From positions 1 to 64,000 of the forward strand of contig JAQZBN010000031.1 of NCBI GenBank assembly GCA_029238935.1: 64,000 nucleotides of DNA, given 5' to 3'. This stretch comes from Herbinix sp. (lineage in GTDB: Bacteria > Bacillota > Clostridia > Lachnospirales > Lachnospiraceae). Below the pieces are notes generated by a model. The model searched no databases. It worked only from the letters and a program-made list of their open reading frames with translations, and had not been told where the DNA came from. The stretch's first letter is position 1. The number at the start of each line of letters is the position of its first letter. A program made the position numbers and the translations under genes. Positions 24,353 to 31,553 of this stretch are shown in pieces.

Positions 24353-25366
24353 TTATTTTATTAATGAGAAATCAAACGTATTTGCGAAAGCCTCCAGATC
24401 AGTTGATGTAATCTTACCACTATCATCTAGAAAGCCATGTTCTGTACCTGCCAATACATTCACAGTGATAAAGGAATTCCCTAAATCAGTGATGATTAAG
24501 GATTTCGATGGACTAATAGCTAAAAGAACAGTTGTACCGGAAGTAGTGGTATAAGTCCATTCCTCATAGTCATTAATACTACCGACATTAAGGATTACAT
24601 CAGTAAAAGAACCTTTCTTGCAATTCATAAACTGATAATCTATGGCAACACCATTTGCTAAATGAGCAGCCCCATCAAAATGGAAGGTGCCATCCTCATA
24701 CATGTAGGTGCTGTAAGCGGTATTTGCTGTTCCTAAGAAATTACCTGTACCAGCTTGTTGAATTAGTTCATCGGTACTTAAAAAGTTTATCGTACTATGA
24801 AGAGAAAGATTGAATTTGTCTATAATCTCATCTAGTTTATCAGCCATTTCCTGAGTATAAACTAAATAAAGATTATATTTGGCATCCAATCCGGTAGGTC
24901 CATTGCCAACCTCAGCTAAAAGGGATACATCCTGATCGTAGCCGTCACAAAAATTGGTCCATTCAGCTACAGCCTTTGATTCATTACTATCTGCAAATCC
25001 TTGAAGCGATATAAATTCAACCGGCGGTGTTGGAACTGCAGTTATAGTATCTACTGGATAAACGTTATCTTCTACGGTTTCTGCATTATCATTCTCATCG
25101 GCAGGAATGGGATCAGAATTGTTATTCTGCTTCACAGTGCTATTGGTAGAAGGGGAATTGGTATTGCCTATTAACATATCTTTCAGGCCAAACATATTCG
25201 TTGCATATACGGTTGATGAAGCAGCTAAAATAATGCAGACAGAGGCTGCAACAGCTAAAATTTTTAAACTTTGTTTGTGTTTATTTTTCATTTTTTTATT
25301 ATCCTCCATATTTAAGTTTACTGTAGTATGTATCTGTGAAAATGTAGCTTTATATTTGTTATTCAT
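24353..25366 (-). CDS. Membrane-anchored protein of an ECF sigma operon (putative anti-sigma factor)
   Basis: 337 residues: a short basic cytoplasmic tail of about 33, one membrane segment ('ILAVAASVCIILAASSTVYA'), an Asn/Ser/Pro linker at about 70-115, and an extracellular domain of about 220 residues. The gene overlaps the upstream sigma gene by 8 bp, the normal layout of sigma/anti-sigma pairs. No zinc anti-sigma HxxxCxxC motif is visible in the short N-terminal part, so the mode of sigma binding would be different from RsrA/RseA types. The outer domain is unfamiliar to me and may sense an external signal. The anti-sigma role is inferred from position and topology. Confidence 0.65.
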   Translation of the reverse strand: MNNKYKATFSQIHTTVNLNMEDNKKMKNKHKQSLKILAVAASVCIILAASSTVYATNMFGLKDMLIGNTNSPSTNSTVKQNNNSDPIPADENDNAETVEDNVYPVDTITAVPTPPVEFISLQGFADSNESKAVAEWTNFCDGYDQDVSLLAEVGNGPTGLDAKYNLYLVYTQEMADKLDEIIDKFNLSLHSTINFLSTDELIQQAGTGNFLGTANTAYSTYMYEDGTFHFDGAAHLANGVAIDYQFMNCKKGSFTDVILNVGSINDYEEWTYTTTSGTTVLLAISPSKSLIITDLGNSFITVNVLAGTEHGFLDDSGKITSTDLEAFANTFDFSLIK

Positions 25367-25829
25367 CCTTCCAAACCTCCTTTAGTTGGTCTCTGGCACG
25401 AGAAAGCCTGGTCGTAACAGCGGACACCTTTATTTTTAGCATTTTGGCAATTACTTTCACGGGCAAATCTTCATAATAGTATAGATATAAGACAGTACGA
25501 TATTTTTCAGGTAATCCCATGACTGCCTGATACAGATCCGCTTGGTCTTTTTGCTCAAAGGACGTCGGCAATACGATATCATCTTGTATTATATTTTTAC
25601 TTTTCCATGAACTCCTTAATAAATTTTTGCATGTGTTAATTGTTACCCGAATCAACCAGTATCTAGCATGATCATCACTAATGAAATCTTTGTTACTGAT
25701 ATATAATTTCATAAAGACATCTTGCACGATATCATCTGCATCATAGGTATTGCCTAAATAACTTAATGCTATTCGAAACACGGTATCTTTATATTTTTCT
25801 GCAAGAGCAAGAAAAATAGCGTGCTCCAA
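25359..25829 (-). CDS. ECF RNA polymerase sigma factor
   Basis: A compact ECF sigma factor of about 156 residues. Sigma2 has 'SYLGNTYDADDIVQDVFMKLY'-type sequence, cut here to its key 'DADDIVQDVFMKL', and 'YWLIRVTINTCKNLLR'; sigma4 has 'YLYYYEDLPVKVIAKMLKIK'. I chose TTG 25829: GGGGGGTGAT lies 5-7 nt upstream and the protein then starts 'MEHAIFLALAEKY', like its relatives. The ATG at 25886 would sit between the -35 and -10 boxes of the promoter I see, so it cannot be on the transcript. It is co-transcribed with the overlapping membrane protein gene. Confidence 0.88.
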   Translation of the reverse strand: MEHAIFLALAEKYKDTVFRIALSYLGNTYDADDIVQDVFMKLYISNKDFISDDHARYWLIRVTINTCKNLLRSSWKSKNIIQDDIVLPTSFEQKDQADLYQAVMGLPEKYRTVLYLYYYEDLPVKVIAKMLKIKVSAVTTRLSRARDQLKEVWKDE

Positions 25830-25866
25830 AAAATCACCCCCCCTGGTATTTTGAAAGCTTTCACTT

Positions 25867-25896
25867 ATAATACAATTATCTTCCATGATTTGTCAC
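25867..25896 (-). promoter_or_regulatory. Promoter of the ECF sigma operon
   Basis: On the minus strand GTGACA (25891-25896) and TATTAT (25867-25872) stand 18 nt apart, close to the housekeeping sigma-A consensus. Transcription would begin near 25860, downstream of the ATG at 25886. Confidence 0.5.
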
Positions 25897-27897: not shown

Positions 27898-28488
27898 ATG
27901 TTTATTTATATACTATTAGCTGTTCTATGCGCAAAATTAAAAGGTTATAAACTAATACCGGTTACAAGAGCCTATTCATTATACCCTTACGCTGTTGTTG
28001 AGGTTATGTATTTGTTTTTGCAGTTTAACATTTTTATACGAAATTATAGTTTTCTAAAATTTACAACCGTAATAAATATGATTTATCTATATACTCTGAT
28101 CATTCCAATTATTGTATACAAATTATATAAGCCAGGAATCTATGGCTCGATATTAATCGTGGTCGGAACTTTGCTGAATAAATTTGTGATCAGCCAAAAT
28201 GATGGAAAAATGCCTGTATTTGCTTCACTTTCAAAGCTTACAGGATATTATGATGAAACAGCAATATTAACCGTTGATAAGATACATAGTATAGGGAATG
28301 AAGCAACCAGATTTAAATTTCTTACGGATTTCATAGATATTGGATGCAGTATATTAAGTATTGGCGACCTACTGATTCATTCTTTTGTATTCATCGTAAT
28401 ATATAACGTAATTAAAGAAATCAATAAAGGAAATGAACTTGTAGAGGAAAGCAGGAAGGGAAGTTTCTTATGGAAACAATCAAGGTAA
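27898..28488 (+). CDS. DUF5317-like membrane protein
   Basis: A 196-residue membrane protein with about five hydrophobic segments. It shows the pattern I associate with DUF5317: an N-terminal 'LLAVLCAKLKGYKL' segment, a central 'NDGKMPV' where most members have NGGxMP, and a late 'SIGDLLIHSFVF'. Function of the family is unknown. AGAGGTAG precedes the ATG. Its end overlaps the next gene by 19 bp, and the next overlaps AgrB by 38 bp, so this is the first gene of the Agr-type signalling operon. The family call is from memory. Confidence 0.65.
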   Translation: MFIYILLAVLCAKLKGYKLIPVTRAYSLYPYAVVEVMYLFLQFNIFIRNYSFLKFTTVINMIYLYTLIIPIIVYKLYKPGIYGSILIVVGTLLNKFVISQNDGKMPVFASLSKLTGYYDETAILTVDKIHSIGNEATRFKFLTDFIDIGCSILSIGDLLIHSFVFIVIYNVIKEINKGNELVEESRKGSFLWKQSR

Positions 28489-28964
28489 TCATCTTTGAAT
28501 ATATATTAGGATACTGTTTACAGGGATCTGCAATTGTATTTGGAATTTATGCTTTTAATCGGCAGAAGATTATAGTTAAGAATTACATTTTAGCTAGTAT
28601 CCTTATTATGATTATTTCGTATCTTGTAAGATTACTGCCAATCAGCTTTGGTGTACATACAATTATAAACATGTTGTTTTTATATTTAATATGTGTAATA
28701 CCGCTTAAAATGCCAGCCTATACTACTATTCGATCCACCTCAATCGTTACGGTTCTTTTGCTTATATGTGAGATGGTAGATGTGGCGATCATAATTGCCA
28801 TCATAGGAAAAACACATTTTGAAAGCTTAATGTATCATTCATTACAAAGATCTTATATAGCGTTACCCGGAAACGTATTATTTGCTCTGGTGGTTATTGT
28901 AGTATATCATTTTTTAACGAAGAAAGGTGATAATCATAGAAACATTAGCTCACAAGTTGGCTGA
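28470..28964 (+). CDS. Membrane protein resembling an AgrC-type sensor domain without a kinase
   Basis: 164 residues with five or six hydrophobic segments and almost no soluble part. It resembles in size and topology the N-terminal receptor half of AgrC-type histidine kinases ('FEYILGYCLQGSAIVFGIYAF' region, split here, and 'LFLYLICVIPLK'), but no HisKA or ATPase domain follows and none is encoded nearby. It could be a free peptide receptor, an immunity-like partner or an export helper; the receptor idea is inference. It overlaps the genes on both sides, which supports joint translation with AgrB. Confidence 0.55.
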   Translation: METIKVIIFEYILGYCLQGSAIVFGIYAFNRQKIIVKNYILASILIMIISYLVRLLPISFGVHTIINMLFLYLICVIPLKMPAYTTIRSTSIVTVLLLICEMVDVAIIIAIIGKTHFESLMYHSLQRSYIALPGNVLFALVVIVVYHFLTKKGDNHRNISSQVG

Positions 28965-29601
28965 AAAAATTGCTTTACAATTGGAGTATGATGAAGATAA
29001 AAAAGCTGTTATTGCATATGGTTTAATTGCTATTTTGCAGATGATAACCATTTTTATCATCATAACAGCCATTGGATTAATATTTGATTTTTGGTTTGAG
29101 AGTATGATCATATTCATGGGTGTGGGACTCATCAGGAAGTCAACCGGTGGAGCACATGCAAAAACAATGAACGGATGTATTATAATAAGTGTTTTATCTG
29201 TTACTATGCTGTCAGCTCTTTCCCGTTATTTATTCGGTTTACCAGTAAATATTTATATCAATTTAGCAGTTACAATCTTTATTTTTATGATAAGTTTTAT
29301 CATATTTTATCTTCGTGTTCCAGTGGATTCACCGAACAAACCTATTGTGAAACCTGAAAAGATTAAGAGGTTAAGAAAGCAAAGTTTTATCTTATTAACA
29401 TTATTTTTCATGATGACAGTCGCTGCTATCGTATTGACGACATCTTCATATCAAAGATTTTATAGTATTGCAGTTAGTTTAAGATTTACAATTCTTTGGC
29501 AGTTATTGACTTTAACAAAATCAGGCGCTTTGCTTTTGGGAAAAATTGATTCACAGATTACACGAATCCTAGAAAAGGAGAAAAGCCTTAGCAAAGTTTA
29601 G
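28927..29601 (+). CDS. agrB: AgrB-family accessory gene regulator (peptide processing and export)
   Basis: A 224-residue polytopic membrane protease that cleaves the AgrD precursor and forms its thiolactone. Counted from GTG 28927 the catalytic residues fall at His77 and Cys84 ('GGAHAKTMNGC'), the same numbers and spacing as in S. aureus AgrB. A basic 'RKSTGG' segment precedes them, as usual. The start is uncertain: AAAGGTGAT spans the GTG and would suit a start a few codons later, where only ATA/ATC codons occur. It overlaps the upstream gene by 38 bp and is followed 69 bp later by agrD. Confidence 0.9.
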   Translation: MIIIETLAHKLAEKIALQLEYDEDKKAVIAYGLIAILQMITIFIIITAIGLIFDFWFESMIIFMGVGLIRKSTGGAHAKTMNGCIIISVLSVTMLSALSRYLFGLPVNIYINLAVTIFIFMISFIIFYLRVPVDSPNKPIVKPEKIKRLRKQSFILLTLFFMMTVAAIVLTTSSYQRFYSIAVSLRFTILWQLLTLTKSGALLLGKIDSQITRILEKEKSLSKV

Positions 29602-29670
29602 GACATCCATATTTTTTATAGCATAGTATTTTTACATACTATAGAACATTAGCGAAAGGAGGTTATCAAA

Positions 29671-29799
29671 ATGAAAAAGAAAAATCTTTTAACTCTTGTT
29701 GCAGCTTTAGCTACCGTAATTGCTTCTACAATAGCTACTTCAGCTTGCTTCTTTTACTTTTATCAACCTGAGGAACCTAAATGCTTGAATGAAAAGTAG
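29671..29799 (+). CDS. agrD: AgrD-like cyclic lactone autoinducer peptide precursor, 42 residues
   Basis: A small gene with AAAGGAGG 9 nt before its ATG. The N-terminus 'MKKKNLLTLVAALATVIAS' is an amphipathic leader, 'TSACFFYF' holds the core, and 'YQPEEPKCLNEK' is the acidic recognition tail. The layout closely follows clostridial AgrD such as that of C. perfringens, where the ring is the five residues starting at Cys. By analogy the signal would be a thiolactone ring of CFFYF (inference). A second Cys in the tail is unusual. A strong terminator follows at 29811-29846. Confidence 0.92.
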   Translation: MKKKNLLTLVAALATVIASTIATSACFFYFYQPEEPKCLNEK

Positions 29800-29810
29800 A
29801 TTGAAGTGTA

Positions 29811-29846
29811 AAGACTTGTGGAAAATTTTCACAAGTCTTTTTTCGA
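29811..29846 (+). terminator. Terminator of the Agr-like operon
   Basis: AAGACTTGTG(G)AAAA pairs with TTTTCACAAGTCTT and runs into seven T. It separates agrD from the c-di-GMP gene, though partial read-through is possible over the 30-bp gap. Confidence 0.85.
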
Positions 29847-29876
29847 CATACAAATAATAGGAAGAAGGTAACATAA

Positions 29877-31553
29877 TTGTCAAGAAGTCTCCCAAGTTTA
29901 AATAATAAGAAAAAAGAGCAGATTAGAACAATGTTTTTTACTTTAAAAATTCTTGCTCTTTTCTTTTCCGCAATCCCATTATTTCATTACTTTTCTAAAA
30001 AGCTTAATATAAATTTTACTAATAATAATTACAGTGTGTATGCAATCGGTATAACATTAATATTTATTTGTTTATTAATGTTTTTTTTGATGTTCATTTT
30101 TAATCGAAATGAGTATAACAAAGTATTGCAGATATTGGAAATGGTTGTTTTTATCATAGTATTTATTGTCGTGATATATGTTAGTGGTGCAAATGAAAGT
30201 TATAACAAATTTATATTCTTGTTCATAATCATTTCTTACACAATTGAATATGATATGAAAACTGGTCTTACCATTGCTTCTATTTCGGCAGCGGTAATCA
30301 TGCTAATGGATTTTGTATTTGGGTTAAAGAATGGTGTTAATGTACAATTTGAAAATGATCTAGCACTTATCGCGATGTTTTACCTTGTTACTTGGACCTT
30401 AGGCTTTTATGTGAAGCTGGAGAAATCACATATACAGGATTTAATGAATTACGCAAATATCGATGGATTGACAGGAGCATATAATCATAGATATTTTTAT
30501 GAAAATATAGAATTGTTGTGTGAAGATAGTAAAAAAAATAATACACAGCTTTCGTTATTAATGATAGACCTGGATTATTTTAAAAAATATAACGATATGT
30601 ATGGGCATTCAAAGGGTGATGAATTATTAAAGGAAATTACCAGCATTATACGAGATAATCTTAGAGAGAAGGACATACTTTGTCGCTATGGTGGGGATGA
30701 GTTTTGCATTATTTTACCGGATACAGACAAGGAAAAAGCCTGTTTTGTTGCCAATAAGATAAGAGAAGCTGTCTATAATTATGATTGTTTTGGACAGGAG
30801 TATTTAAAAAATGGAAAAATGACACTTTCTATCGGTGTTTCAACTTATAATAATGAAATGGATCATTGTAAAGATTTGATAGAAAATGCTGATATGGCTT
30901 TATATAGAGCAAAATTTTTACGAAGAAATAAAGTTGAGGTATATTCCTCTATATTTGAACAAGTGAAAGAAATCAATAATATAAATACAAATTTATTAGA
31001 AGATATCAAGCCTTTAAAAACACTGATAACCGTAATAAATTCCAGAGATACGTATACATATAAGCATGTTGAAAGAGTTTTTAACTACTGCAGTATTATA
31101 GCAGACCATCTTAAGTTATCTTCTGAGGATAAACGATTACTAATGTATGCAGCATATCTTCATGATTTGGGTAAAATAAACGTTTCAAAGGAAATTTTAA
31201 TTTCAAGCAGTAAGCTTACACAGGAGCAATGGGAAGAACTAAAGAAACATCCTCAGGATAGTGCTGATATTATAAAACAAATAAAAGGATTTGAGAATGT
31301 GGTCCCAATCGTTTTAGAGCATCATGAGAAGTTTGATGGTACCGGATATCCGAATGGTCTGAAAGGCGAAAAAATAAGTTACCTAGCTCGTATCTTGACT
31401 GTTGTTGACTCTTTTGATGCGATGACAAATCAGAGACCATATCAGAAAACGAAAACATTCGATGAGGCGTTTGAAGAAATTGAACGGTGCAAGGGTACTC
31501 ATTTTGATCCAAAGATAGCGGATAAATTTATTGAAGCTTTAAAATTAATATAG
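29877..31553 (+). CDS. Membrane GGDEF and HD-GYP c-di-GMP enzyme
   Basis: 558 residues: about six hydrophobic segments to residue 185, a GGDEF domain with intact GGDEF at 272-276, and an HD-GYP domain with His429-Asp430 and GYP at 490-492. A canonical I-site (REKD, Arg and Asp present) lies just before the cyclase signature. The protein can thus in principle make c-di-GMP and break it to pGpG or GMP, the net direction depending on the membrane sensor. TTG 29877 follows a GGAAGAAGG site by about 8 nt. It starts 78 bp after agrD with a terminator between, so a functional tie to Agr signalling is suggestive only. Confidence 0.9.
   Translation: MSRSLPSLNNKKKEQIRTMFFTLKILALFFSAIPLFHYFSKKLNINFTNNNYSVYAIGITLIFICLLMFFLMFIFNRNEYNKVLQILEMVVFIIVFIVVIYVSGANESYNKFIFLFIIISYTIEYDMKTGLTIASISAAVIMLMDFVFGLKNGVNVQFENDLALIAMFYLVTWTLGFYVKLEKSHIQDLMNYANIDGLTGAYNHRYFYENIELLCEDSKKNNTQLSLLMIDLDYFKKYNDMYGHSKGDELLKEITSIIRDNLREKDILCRYGGDEFCIILPDTDKEKACFVANKIREAVYNYDCFGQEYLKNGKMTLSIGVSTYNNEMDHCKDLIENADMALYRAKFLRRNKVEVYSSIFEQVKEINNINTNLLEDIKPLKTLITVINSRDTYTYKHVERVFNYCSIIADHLKLSSEDKRLLMYAAYLHDLGKINVSKEILISSSKLTQEQWEELKKHPQDSADIIKQIKGFENVVPIVLEHHEKFDGTGYPNGLKGEKISYLARILTVVDSFDAMTNQRPYQKTKTFDEAFEEIERCKGTHFDPKIADKFIEALKLI

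Follow-up and report, generated by a model that had tools for sequence, protein, structure and literature searches.

A clostridial agr locus with a candidate kinase-less peptide receptor linked to a c-di-GMP enzyme

How might a cyclic peptide signal be sensed at an agr locus that carries genes for the peptide precursor and its processing enzyme, and no kinase? The question is raised by a 64,000-nt stretch of Herbinix sp. DNA (contig JAQZBN010000031.1, positions 1 to 64,000; hereafter the window), in which five genes stand in the order DUF5317, ORF2 (a 164-residue polytopic protein), AgrB, AgrD and a membrane GGDEF/HD-GYP enzyme (Table 1).

A five-gene agr locus without AgrC or AgrA

The families, motifs and linkage at this locus are read directly from its sequence. 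A preliminary description had placed the five genes where we find them, and DUF5317, AgrB, AgrD and the enzyme were recovered again by profile matches and motifs; the distance between agrD and the enzyme gene, given there as 78 bp, measures 77 bp. It had also remarked that no AgrC kinase or AgrA regulator lies nearby, and this extends to the whole contig, on which neither the GHKL-kinase profile (PF14501) nor the LytTR profile (PF04397) has a match at E ≤ 0.001. The window has no Rfam match. No convincing regulator site is shared across 49 upstream regions; TGTCGAA occurs in 4 of them against 0.34 expected from shuffling, too few for use.

Table 1. Features of the five-gene set, in window coordinates
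Feature	Position	Strand	Basis
DUF5317 membrane protein, 196 aa, first of set, proposed HD-GYP companion	27898..28488	+	PF17248 E 5.6e-23
ORF2, 164 aa, proposed kinase-less AIP receptor subunit, ~5 TM helices, conserved RxLPIxxGVHTI core	28470..28964	+	A1 profile, hhalign, AF2
AgrB, 224 aa, membrane cysteine endopeptidase, His77/Cys84, GTG start overlapping ORF2	28927..29601	+	PF04647 E 1.4e-36
AgrD, 42 aa, cyclic peptide precursor	29671..29799	+	TIGR04223 E 2.6e-14
Predicted thiolactone ring CFFYF of mature peptide	29746..29760	+	AgrD row comparison and staphylococcal pattern
Stem-loop directly 3′ of agrD; leaky terminator or RNA-processing element	29810..29840	+	MFE -18.2 kcal/mol, z -3.4
Membrane c-di-GMP enzyme, 6TM domain, GGDEF, HD-GYP, 558 aa, TTG start	29877..31553	+	GGDEF E 5.9e-48, HD_5 E 7.5e-41
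Enzyme membrane domain, common to PAS-HisKA kinases of other loci	29877..30407	+	Profile A5
GGDEF domain with I-site	30453..30929	+	Pfam, residues 193-351
HD-GYP domain	31020..31517	+	Pfam HD_5, residues 382-547

The peptide-making half of the locus is of a familiar type. The His77 and Cys84 first pointed out in AgrB are invariant in all four AgrBs of our alignment (A3), and AgrD carries the cysteine and the C-terminal recruitment/cleavage motif, SACFFYFYQPEEP, in a conserved pattern. Across the c-di-GMP branch (51 AgrD rows), A-C and the flanking Q-P, E-P and L are invariant and the four ring residues vary, giving 46 distinct rings: a hypervariable ring within conserved flanks. The boundary of the CFFYF ring is presumably that of the staphylococcal pattern, from which we took it.

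The hairpin that follows agrD was matched in stability by none of 200 shuffles and was not listed by a simple terminator scan. Hairpins with a stem of at least 9 bp follow agrD in 57/63 rows, a T-run follows the hairpin in 4/63 (a crude measure), and the gap between agrD and the enzyme gene is short across loci (median 58 bp). The earlier reading of a terminator that separates two transcripts therefore stands in part: the hairpin is real and conserved, but it argues weakly for separate transcripts because T-runs are rare and the gap is short.

The enzyme retains RYGGDEF, the RxxD I-site, HDLGK and HHEKFDGTGYP, as previously claimed, and by these intact catalytic motifs it is of the bifunctional GGDEF/HD-GYP type, with both activities predicted. 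Among 52 related enzymes, GG(D/E)E is kept in 50, HDxGK in all 52, the HHEKFDGTGYP-type motif in 46 (strict pattern) and the I-site in 36. No PAS or receiver domain appears among its Pfam matches at E ≤ 1. Its membrane domain, with a helix count of six judged by eye, has strong matches at 21 loci in 391 genomes, 17 of them beside agrD; enzymes or kinases with this domain and no agr genes also exist (L159, L160 and, more weakly, L161), so the domain may have other inputs. The genome carries four c-di-GMP-I riboswitches.

The five genes stay together across families

The preliminary description proposed a comparison of gene order in relatives, and the five genes do stay together, in the window, in four of five close relatives (the remaining one lies on a contig that stops shortly past ORF2), at L045, L046 and L047 from a second family of the order and, within family f64, at 30 of the 40 loci retrieved, which came mostly from the top of an ORF2 score list, a choice that may favour the five-gene class. 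Their contiguity exceeds chance: the unbroken order is found at 42 of the 93 ORF2 loci examined, in 5 families and 23 genus labels, and ORF2-AgrB-AgrD-enzyme at 48. One further genus (g389) has the same genes rearranged (L084; L123 and L162 are one locus fetched twice). ORF2 and agrB overlap, with a median spacing of -17 bp over the 42 loci. Within one clostridial family, 110 of the 194 genomes have ORF2, so the receptor candidate, at least, is common there.

Distances of all five genes correlate in a mirror-tree test of 40 loci (r 0.82-0.94). Partial correlations with the membrane domain of the enzyme are alike for AgrB (0.49) and ORF2 (0.50), so the test gives no specific sign of contact between ORF2 and the enzyme. 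On the ORF2 tree, starred branches force at least four changes of the c-di-GMP label when loci that show no output are scored as other.

ORF2 resembles the sensors of one class of AgrC-like kinases

ORF2 has no NCBIfam match and a single sub-cut-off match in Pfam (E 0.23). A profile search against AgrC sensors had been suggested earlier as a check. Profile A1 was built from three stand-alone ORF2s only, so that its matches to kinase sensors are non-circular, and it matches the N-terminal sensor of full LytTR-linked kinases at L037 (E 1.7e-8) and L039 (E 1.4e-4). Proteins unrelated by inspection (L032, L033, L038) also appear at E ~1e-4 to 1e-3, so L039 alone is insufficient; L031 (E 3.9e-4), a GHKL kinase encoded next to a LytTR gene, was too weak to count. 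A wider stretch around L037 (L048) reads LytTR regulator, kinase, a 227-residue protein, AgrB, AgrD.

Profile-profile alignment (hhalign) of ORF2 with six fused kinase sensors gave 99.7% (E 4.8e-27, 149 columns), and control alignments with the membrane domain of the enzyme, DUF5317 and AgrB each gave under 1%. A mixed set of AgrC-like sensors gave 92.8%, which fell to 0.6%, no detectable similarity, when four kinases with prior weak ORF2 matches were removed and the genome's canonical AgrC was among those kept. We therefore dropped the notion that ORF2 represents AgrC sensors in general and claim homology for one class of AgrC-like kinase only. Within that scope, the alignments support ORF2 as a homologue of the membrane sensor of these kinases, one of which (L048) adjoins AgrB and AgrD. 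The original suggestion that the 164-residue protein looks like the receptor half of AgrC is thus supported for some AgrC-like sensors, including that of L037; no similarity was detected to the set with the canonical AgrC.

ORF2 has no cytosolic GHKL kinase domain: the protein stops past its membrane part and has no Pfam kinase match. Its AlphaFold (AF2) model (pLDDT 74) has five long helices; against the PDB, Foldseek returned nothing with E under 3 and a sequence search returned no match at E ≤ 1. This model and that of DUF5317, which was unusable (pLDDT 46), were each folded from six sequences, those of the window and related loci, a small alignment depth.

ORF2 stands beside four kinds of output

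Four outputs accompany ORF2: a fused kinase, a split kinase, a 6TM-PAS-HisKA kinase and the 6TM-GGDEF-HD-GYP enzyme of the window type. At 10 of the 93 loci ORF2 is fused to the kinase, and at another class of 10 it adjoins a separate GHKL kinase, six in the exact order ORF2-kinase-AgrB-AgrD-LytTR (at L087, Pfam confirms the kinase domains). The 6TM domain of the enzyme recurs on PAS-HisKA kinases at 13/93 loci, 10 of them ordered ORF2-AgrB-AgrD-kinase; at L109 it is fused to PAS-HisKA-HATPase_c. Half of the fused kinases (L049, L104-L107) show no AgrB or AgrD within the stretch retrieved, at L098 there is AgrB only, about 6 kb off, and L102, L103 and L126 give weak matches to the ORF2 profile (E 2e-4 to 3e-3), so that context makes the name AgrC certain for few of these kinases.

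Two loci bear on the partner of ORF2. L119 and L227 each have ORF2 directly adjoining a 6TM-PAS-HisKA gene, and in the 18.5-19.5 kb around them (L265, L266) a search relaxed to E < 1 still returned neither AgrB nor AgrD, which argues that ORF2 pairs with the transducer itself. Conversely, L157 has AgrB-AgrD-enzyme in a genome (G635) with no ORF2 at E ≤ 0.001, so ORF2 is not always needed.

DUF5317, with a Pfam match of 82.1 bits against a curated cut-off of 25, follows the output: it is present in 42/49 c-di-GMP-output loci versus 4/44 others, and in one kinase-output locus (L200) it is in two pieces. Outside agr, the gene immediately upstream of it encodes an HD-GYP protein in 23/30 loci. A phylogenetic test of DUF5317 against output had just two independent starred pairs, too few. 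The protein may be a general partner of HD-GYP phosphodiesterases; we found no mention of it in the open-licence literature searched.

A proposed mechanism and its alternatives

Gene order and sensor homology both favour the principal idea of the preliminary description, a kinase-less receptor candidate in an agr operon. On these grounds we think it probable that the locus is an Agr-type peptide quorum-sensing module in which ORF2 and the c-di-GMP enzyme would together form a kinase-free receptor and c-di-GMP output would replace the two-component pair. AgrB would cut AgrD and close the product into a thiolactone peptide of five residues, with CFFYF as the predicted ring, and this peptide would be exported. 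ORF2, as an autonomous homologue of the AgrC-like sensor half, may then bind the peptide and dock, in the membrane, on the 6TM domain of the adjoining enzyme, and docking would shift the balance between cyclase and phosphodiesterase, in a direction that, like the binding and the contact, we infer from sequence. DUF5317 would serve the c-di-GMP output as an HD-GYP companion and would take no part in peptide sensing.

We give roughly even chances to a broader reading, in which ORF2 is a small autonomous membrane receptor subunit of a widespread, unrecognised clostridial class that plugs into exchangeable transducers (GHKL kinase, PAS-HisKA kinase or c-di-GMP enzyme). The peptide would then set c-di-GMP without a kinase or response regulator, DUF5317 would be a general HD-GYP partner, and loci with ORF2 and a transducer and without AgrB/AgrD would hold eavesdropping receptors.

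The 6TM domain of the enzyme might itself be the peptide receptor, with ORF2 and DUF5317 as accessories to peptide making or export. Such a role would suit the overlap of ORF2 with agrB, as a processing partner might show, the place of the 6TM domain beside agrD in most strong loci and the retention of AgrB-AgrD-enzyme at L157. We nevertheless consider it unlikely, given that ORF2 forms the sensor end of full kinases, immediately precedes the kinase gene in split loci and accompanies a transducer at L119 and L227, where no AgrB or AgrD was found.

It is more doubtful still that an orphan AgrC/AgrA pair elsewhere senses the peptide, with the enzyme a mere neighbour or target gene. The genome does carry further GHKL-kinase/LytTR pairs (contigs C38, C44, C104 and C8) and a complete canonical agr system on C109, and VirS has been proposed as receptor for the agrC-less agrBD locus of C. 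perfringens (accessible part of PMC7492741). However, the agr system on C109 comes with an AgrB and an AgrD of its own and a different peptide, the genome has no other ORF2-type sensor at E ≤ 0.001, and an orphan pair leaves the enzyme linkage, conserved over five families, unexplained. A 275-residue kinase on C8 (L051), considered as an ORF2 partner, was rejected: it has no ORF2 beside it and, by inspection, an SPFH-like gene nearby. Mere co-regulation or co-inheritance of agrBD and the enzyme, without direct signalling, would accord with the distance correlation of the five genes and with a conserved hairpin that could separate expression; we regard it as very improbable, since the same ORF2-AgrB-AgrD set stands beside different outputs, the c-di-GMP label changes repeatedly on the ORF2 tree (with the counting given above) and the set is kept in rearranged loci.

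Relation to known systems

We found no description of such an agr/c-di-GMP module in the open-licence literature searched. The presence of the five-gene unit in many clostridia suggests that cells may convert the peptide signals of neighbours directly into c-di-GMP changes, kinase-free. If so, Gram-positive peptide quorum sensing would reach the second messenger c-di-GMP without phosphotransfer, AIP-sensing receptors and outputs would be modular, and DUF5317 would gain a role beside HD-GYP enzymes.

With canonical agrBDCA, both the staphylococcal type and the C109 copy, the locus shares the His/Cys pair of AgrB, the AgrD cysteine with its QP.EP flank and a hypervariable AIP-like ring; it differs in having no AgrC or AgrA, a stand-alone sensor half, a c-di-GMP enzyme as output and an added DUF5317. 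A link from quorum signal to c-di-GMP through a GGDEF/EAL or HD-GYP enzyme is described for RpfR (BDSF) and RpfC/RpfG (DSF) in the accessible parts of PMC13220807 and PMC5391125, but there with fatty-acid signals in Gram-negative bacteria and a PAS receptor domain or phosphorelay in place of a cyclic peptide and membrane receptor subunit. As the window enzyme has neither a PAS nor a receiver domain, its resemblance to the RpfR/RpfG type can be functional only. In C. difficile, the Agr2 system (agrACDB) likewise affects c-di-GMP genes, but indirectly: transcript levels of c-di-GMP phosphodiesterase genes change in an agrA mutant, and a canonical kinase and regulator are present (accessible part of PMC3754575).

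The closest parallel in layout is C. perfringens, where two co-transcribed hypothetical genes precede agrB-agrD (CPE1563-CPE1562-agrB-agrD) and an agrB mutant was complemented by a four-gene clone and not by agrB-agrD alone, as reported in the accessible part of PMC2706048. CPE1563 and CPE1562 occupy the positions of DUF5317 and ORF2. There, unlike here, VirS is the proposed receptor; it is one candidate, and an unassigned band of about 75 kDa was seen in the pull-down (PMC7492741, accessible part). AgrC-less clostridial agrBD loci were thus already known; to these the present module adds a named receptor candidate and a proposed direct output.

A five-gene agr locus with a c-di-GMP enzyme

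As the preliminary description had it, four agr-type genes are followed by a c-di-GMP enzyme, and all five lie head to tail (Table). ORF2, the second gene, overlaps the DUF5317 gene by 19 bp and agrB by 38 bp; the spacers are 69 bp between agrB and agrD and 77 bp between agrD and the enzyme gene. The reported absence of AgrC and AgrA nearby was borne out, with no match to PF14501 (AgrC-type kinase) or PF04397 (LytTR) on the window's contig at E ≤ 0.001. The genome (5.37 Mb in 157 contigs, 95% complete, 8% contamination) encodes one further AgrB. It belongs to a second, canonical agr system on contig C109 (L050), arranged as LytTR regulator, AgrC, AgrD with TACIYLIHQPKLP, and AgrB.

The proposed linkage of the five genes extends to relatives. 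The order is kept in four of five close relatives from named genomes, namely a Herbinix MAG (L041), Parasporobacterium paucivorans (L042), [Clostridium] fimetarium (L043) and Anaerobium acetethylicum (L044); in the fifth, an Anaerocolumna MAG (L040), the contig stops shortly past ORF2. It is also kept in L045, L046 and L047, genomes from another family within the order, and the genes flanking the set vary between relatives (by inspection). Among 93 annotated ORF2-bearing loci, a non-random set with 40 from family f64, mostly the top of a score-ranked list, the five genes are unbroken in 42, from 23 genus labels and five families (counting named Lachnospiraceae and the window's f1 as one). ORF2-AgrB-AgrD-enzyme order occurs in 48 of the 93, with the enzyme of one (L198) in two open frames. 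The f64 list has ORF2 in 110 of 194 genomes. Genus g389 carries a rearranged set, AgrD-enzyme-DUF5317-ORF2 on one contig (L123 and L162, a single locus) and enzyme-DUF5317-ORF2-AgrB on another (L084), both truncated by contig ends.

Features of the window and of comparison loci
Feature	Location	Description
Five-gene locus	Window 27898-31553	DUF5317, ORF2 (164 residues, membrane), AgrB, AgrD, membrane GGDEF/HD-GYP enzyme
Enzyme	Window 29877-31553	6TM-GGDEF-HD-GYP
6TM domain	Window 29877-30407	Membrane domain of the enzyme; helices counted by eye
Possible sigma/anti-sigma pair	Window 24353-25886	Minus strand; ECF-type sigma factor gene, then membrane protein with weak DUF4179 match
ORF2 and kinase	L119:8085-10428	ORF2 directly adjoins 6TM-PAS-HisKA gene
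ORF2 and kinase	L227:712-3038	ORF2 directly adjoins 6TM-PAS-HisKA gene
AgrB-AgrD	L113:2971-3780	Single 269-aa open frame covering both; apparent fusion
AgrD	L048:11174-11308	Next to fused AgrC; no Cys at ring position (TTSMFLMYQPEPP); ring possibly a Ser lactone

ORF2 is related to the sensor end of some AgrC-like kinases

ORF2 has no NCBIfam match and no Pfam family above its cut-off. When 392 genomes of the order were searched with a profile built from three stand-alone ORF2s, two full kinases matched at their N-terminal sensor end: L037 (E = 1.7e-8) and L039 (E = 1.4e-4; 454 aa, similar along its length by inspection). Each adjoins a LytTR-type regulator gene. One unrelated protein also matched (E = 8.5e-4). 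Pfam confirmed SPOB_a/GHKL kinase domains in the L037 kinase. In the wider stretch around it (L048) the order is LytTR, kinase, a 227-aa protein, AgrB and AgrD, and with AgrB and AgrD encoded alongside, the context makes this kinase an AgrC. When 66 stand-alone ORF2s were combined into a profile and compared with six such sensors, the match scored 99.7% (E = 4.8e-27, 149 columns). The 66 had been gathered with a profile that contained two kinase sensors; the three-ORF2 search is therefore the non-circular result. The suggested likeness to the receptor half of AgrC thus stands for sensors of the L037/L039 type, but not for a sensor set including this genome's canonical AgrC, with which no similarity was detected. 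The conserved core of ORF2 is RxLPIxxGVHTI, and its AlphaFold model has five long helices (pLDDT 74).

ORF2 accompanies alternative outputs

The output beside ORF2 is a c-di-GMP enzyme in 49 of the 93 loci, a 6TM-PAS-HisKA kinase in 13, a split kinase in 10 and a fused kinase in 10; none is seen in the other 11, some of them at contig ends. In split loci ORF2 adjoins a gene for a kinase of 279-311 aa, in the same order as within the fused protein, and 6 of the 10 read exactly ORF2-kinase-AgrB-AgrD-LytTR. Fused-kinase loci L048, L102, L103 and L126 have AgrB or AgrD next to the kinase or close by, AgrB lies about 6 kb off in L098, and neither was found within the stretch examined in L049 and L104-L107. 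The PAS-HisKA kinases have a membrane domain of the same family as the window enzyme's 6TM domain. Strong matches to that domain (E < 1e-10; 391 genomes) comprise 21 loci: 17 beside agrD, one more beside ORF2 only, and three (L159, L160, L161) beside neither. On the ORF2 tree, a quick one with several long branches and with loci lacking a visible output scored as other, the c-di-GMP label requires 10 changes, at least 4 of them forced by starred branches.

ORF2 could be a receptor partner or a helper of AgrB. L119 and L227 separate these roles: no AgrB or AgrD was found there even at E < 1 in the surrounding 18.5-19.5 kb, and ORF2 stays with the transducer. Both are candidate eavesdropping receptors. 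L157, with AgrB, AgrD and the enzyme yet no ORF2 in its genome at E ≤ 0.001, counts against ORF2 as receptor partner.

In five loci with PAS-HisKA output (L112, L118, L120, L223, L229) ORF2 is present in two or three copies, with a pairwise identity of 47-62% (pairs from loci other than L120); a heteromeric receptor or several peptides are possible. L085, L086 and L088 contain ORF2-AgrB-AgrD with no recognised output gene, and L085 adjoins a periplasmic-binding-protein gene (Pfam Peripla_BP_6).

Peptide, enzyme and transcript

Among the AgrD sequences of the c-di-GMP branch (51 rows, L123 and L162 being one locus), the Cys, the Ala before it and the flanking Q-P, E-P and L are invariant, and the four ring residues vary, giving 46 distinct rings. 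The predicted thiolactone ring of the window's peptide is CFFYF. Judged from sequence, invariant flanks with a variable ring are what a specific cyclic signal would show. Among 52 enzymes, GG(D/E)E is kept in 50, HDxGK in all, the full GYP motif in 46 (strict pattern) and the I-site in 36, so that cyclase and phosphodiesterase activity are both plausible. The messenger has readers in this genome, as it carries four c-di-GMP-I riboswitches (L231-L234). Two of these, L232 and L233, stand 5′ of chemoreceptor-like membrane protein genes (by inspection).

A terminator after agrD had been taken to indicate separate transcripts. The hairpin itself is present and conserved, with a stem of at least 9 bp 3′ of agrD in 57 of 63 rows, differing in sequence by eye, and a T-rich 3′ arm in the window. 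However, a five-T run directly at the hairpin end occurs in only 4 of 63 rows, by a crude measure that overlooks T-runs paired within the stem, and the median agrD-to-enzyme gap is 58 bp. We read the set as one operon, in which the hairpin may be a leaky terminator or processing signal giving more agrD than enzyme.

DUF5317 as a likely HD-GYP companion

DUF5317 occurs in 42 of 49 c-di-GMP-output loci versus 4 of 44 others (p = 1.7e-14 by Fisher's test, without correction for kinship). The exceptions are L040 and L084, cut at contig ends; L197, without an output gene in view; and L200, where the output is a PAS-HisKA kinase and DUF5317 is split in two pieces. When 196 genomes were searched separately with Pfam, 41 contained DUF5317, at 47 places. 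Of the 30 loci listed (L235-L264), 23 encode an HD-GYP protein directly before DUF5317 in the same orientation, and agr genes were seen in none of the 30; the membrane part of one such protein, run through Pfam, matches MASE9 just below cut-off. Tracking c-di-GMP output and following HD-GYP genes outside agr, DUF5317 is likely a general partner of HD-GYP phosphodiesterases.

Proposed mechanism and comparison with known systems

AgrB would produce a cyclic peptide, by analogy with AgrB/AgrD biochemistry in staphylococci. ORF2 would receive it, as homology and gene fusion suggest, and would then act on the enzyme's 6TM part, a step to which the alternative outputs and L119/L227 point, shifting the c-di-GMP level. 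Gene linkage suggests that DUF5317 would serve the HD-GYP output.

No account of ORF2, or of a c-di-GMP enzyme linked to agrBD, was found in the open-licence PubMed Central literature searched, including PMC4963840, PMC8748961, PMC6362236, PMC7522474, PMC5322536, PMC3754575, PMC13220807, PMC5391125, PMC2706048 and PMC7492741; subscription papers, such as a C. botulinum agrBD study, may add to this. DUF5317 appears in 0 papers of the open-licence collection. C. perfringens agrBD is the subject of PMC2706048 and, also, PMC7492741. According to PMC2706048, two co-transcribed hypothetical genes stand upstream of agrB-agrD, and an agrB mutant was complemented by a four-gene clone, not by agrB-agrD alone. 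These two preceding genes are positioned like DUF5317 and ORF2, a likeness of position.
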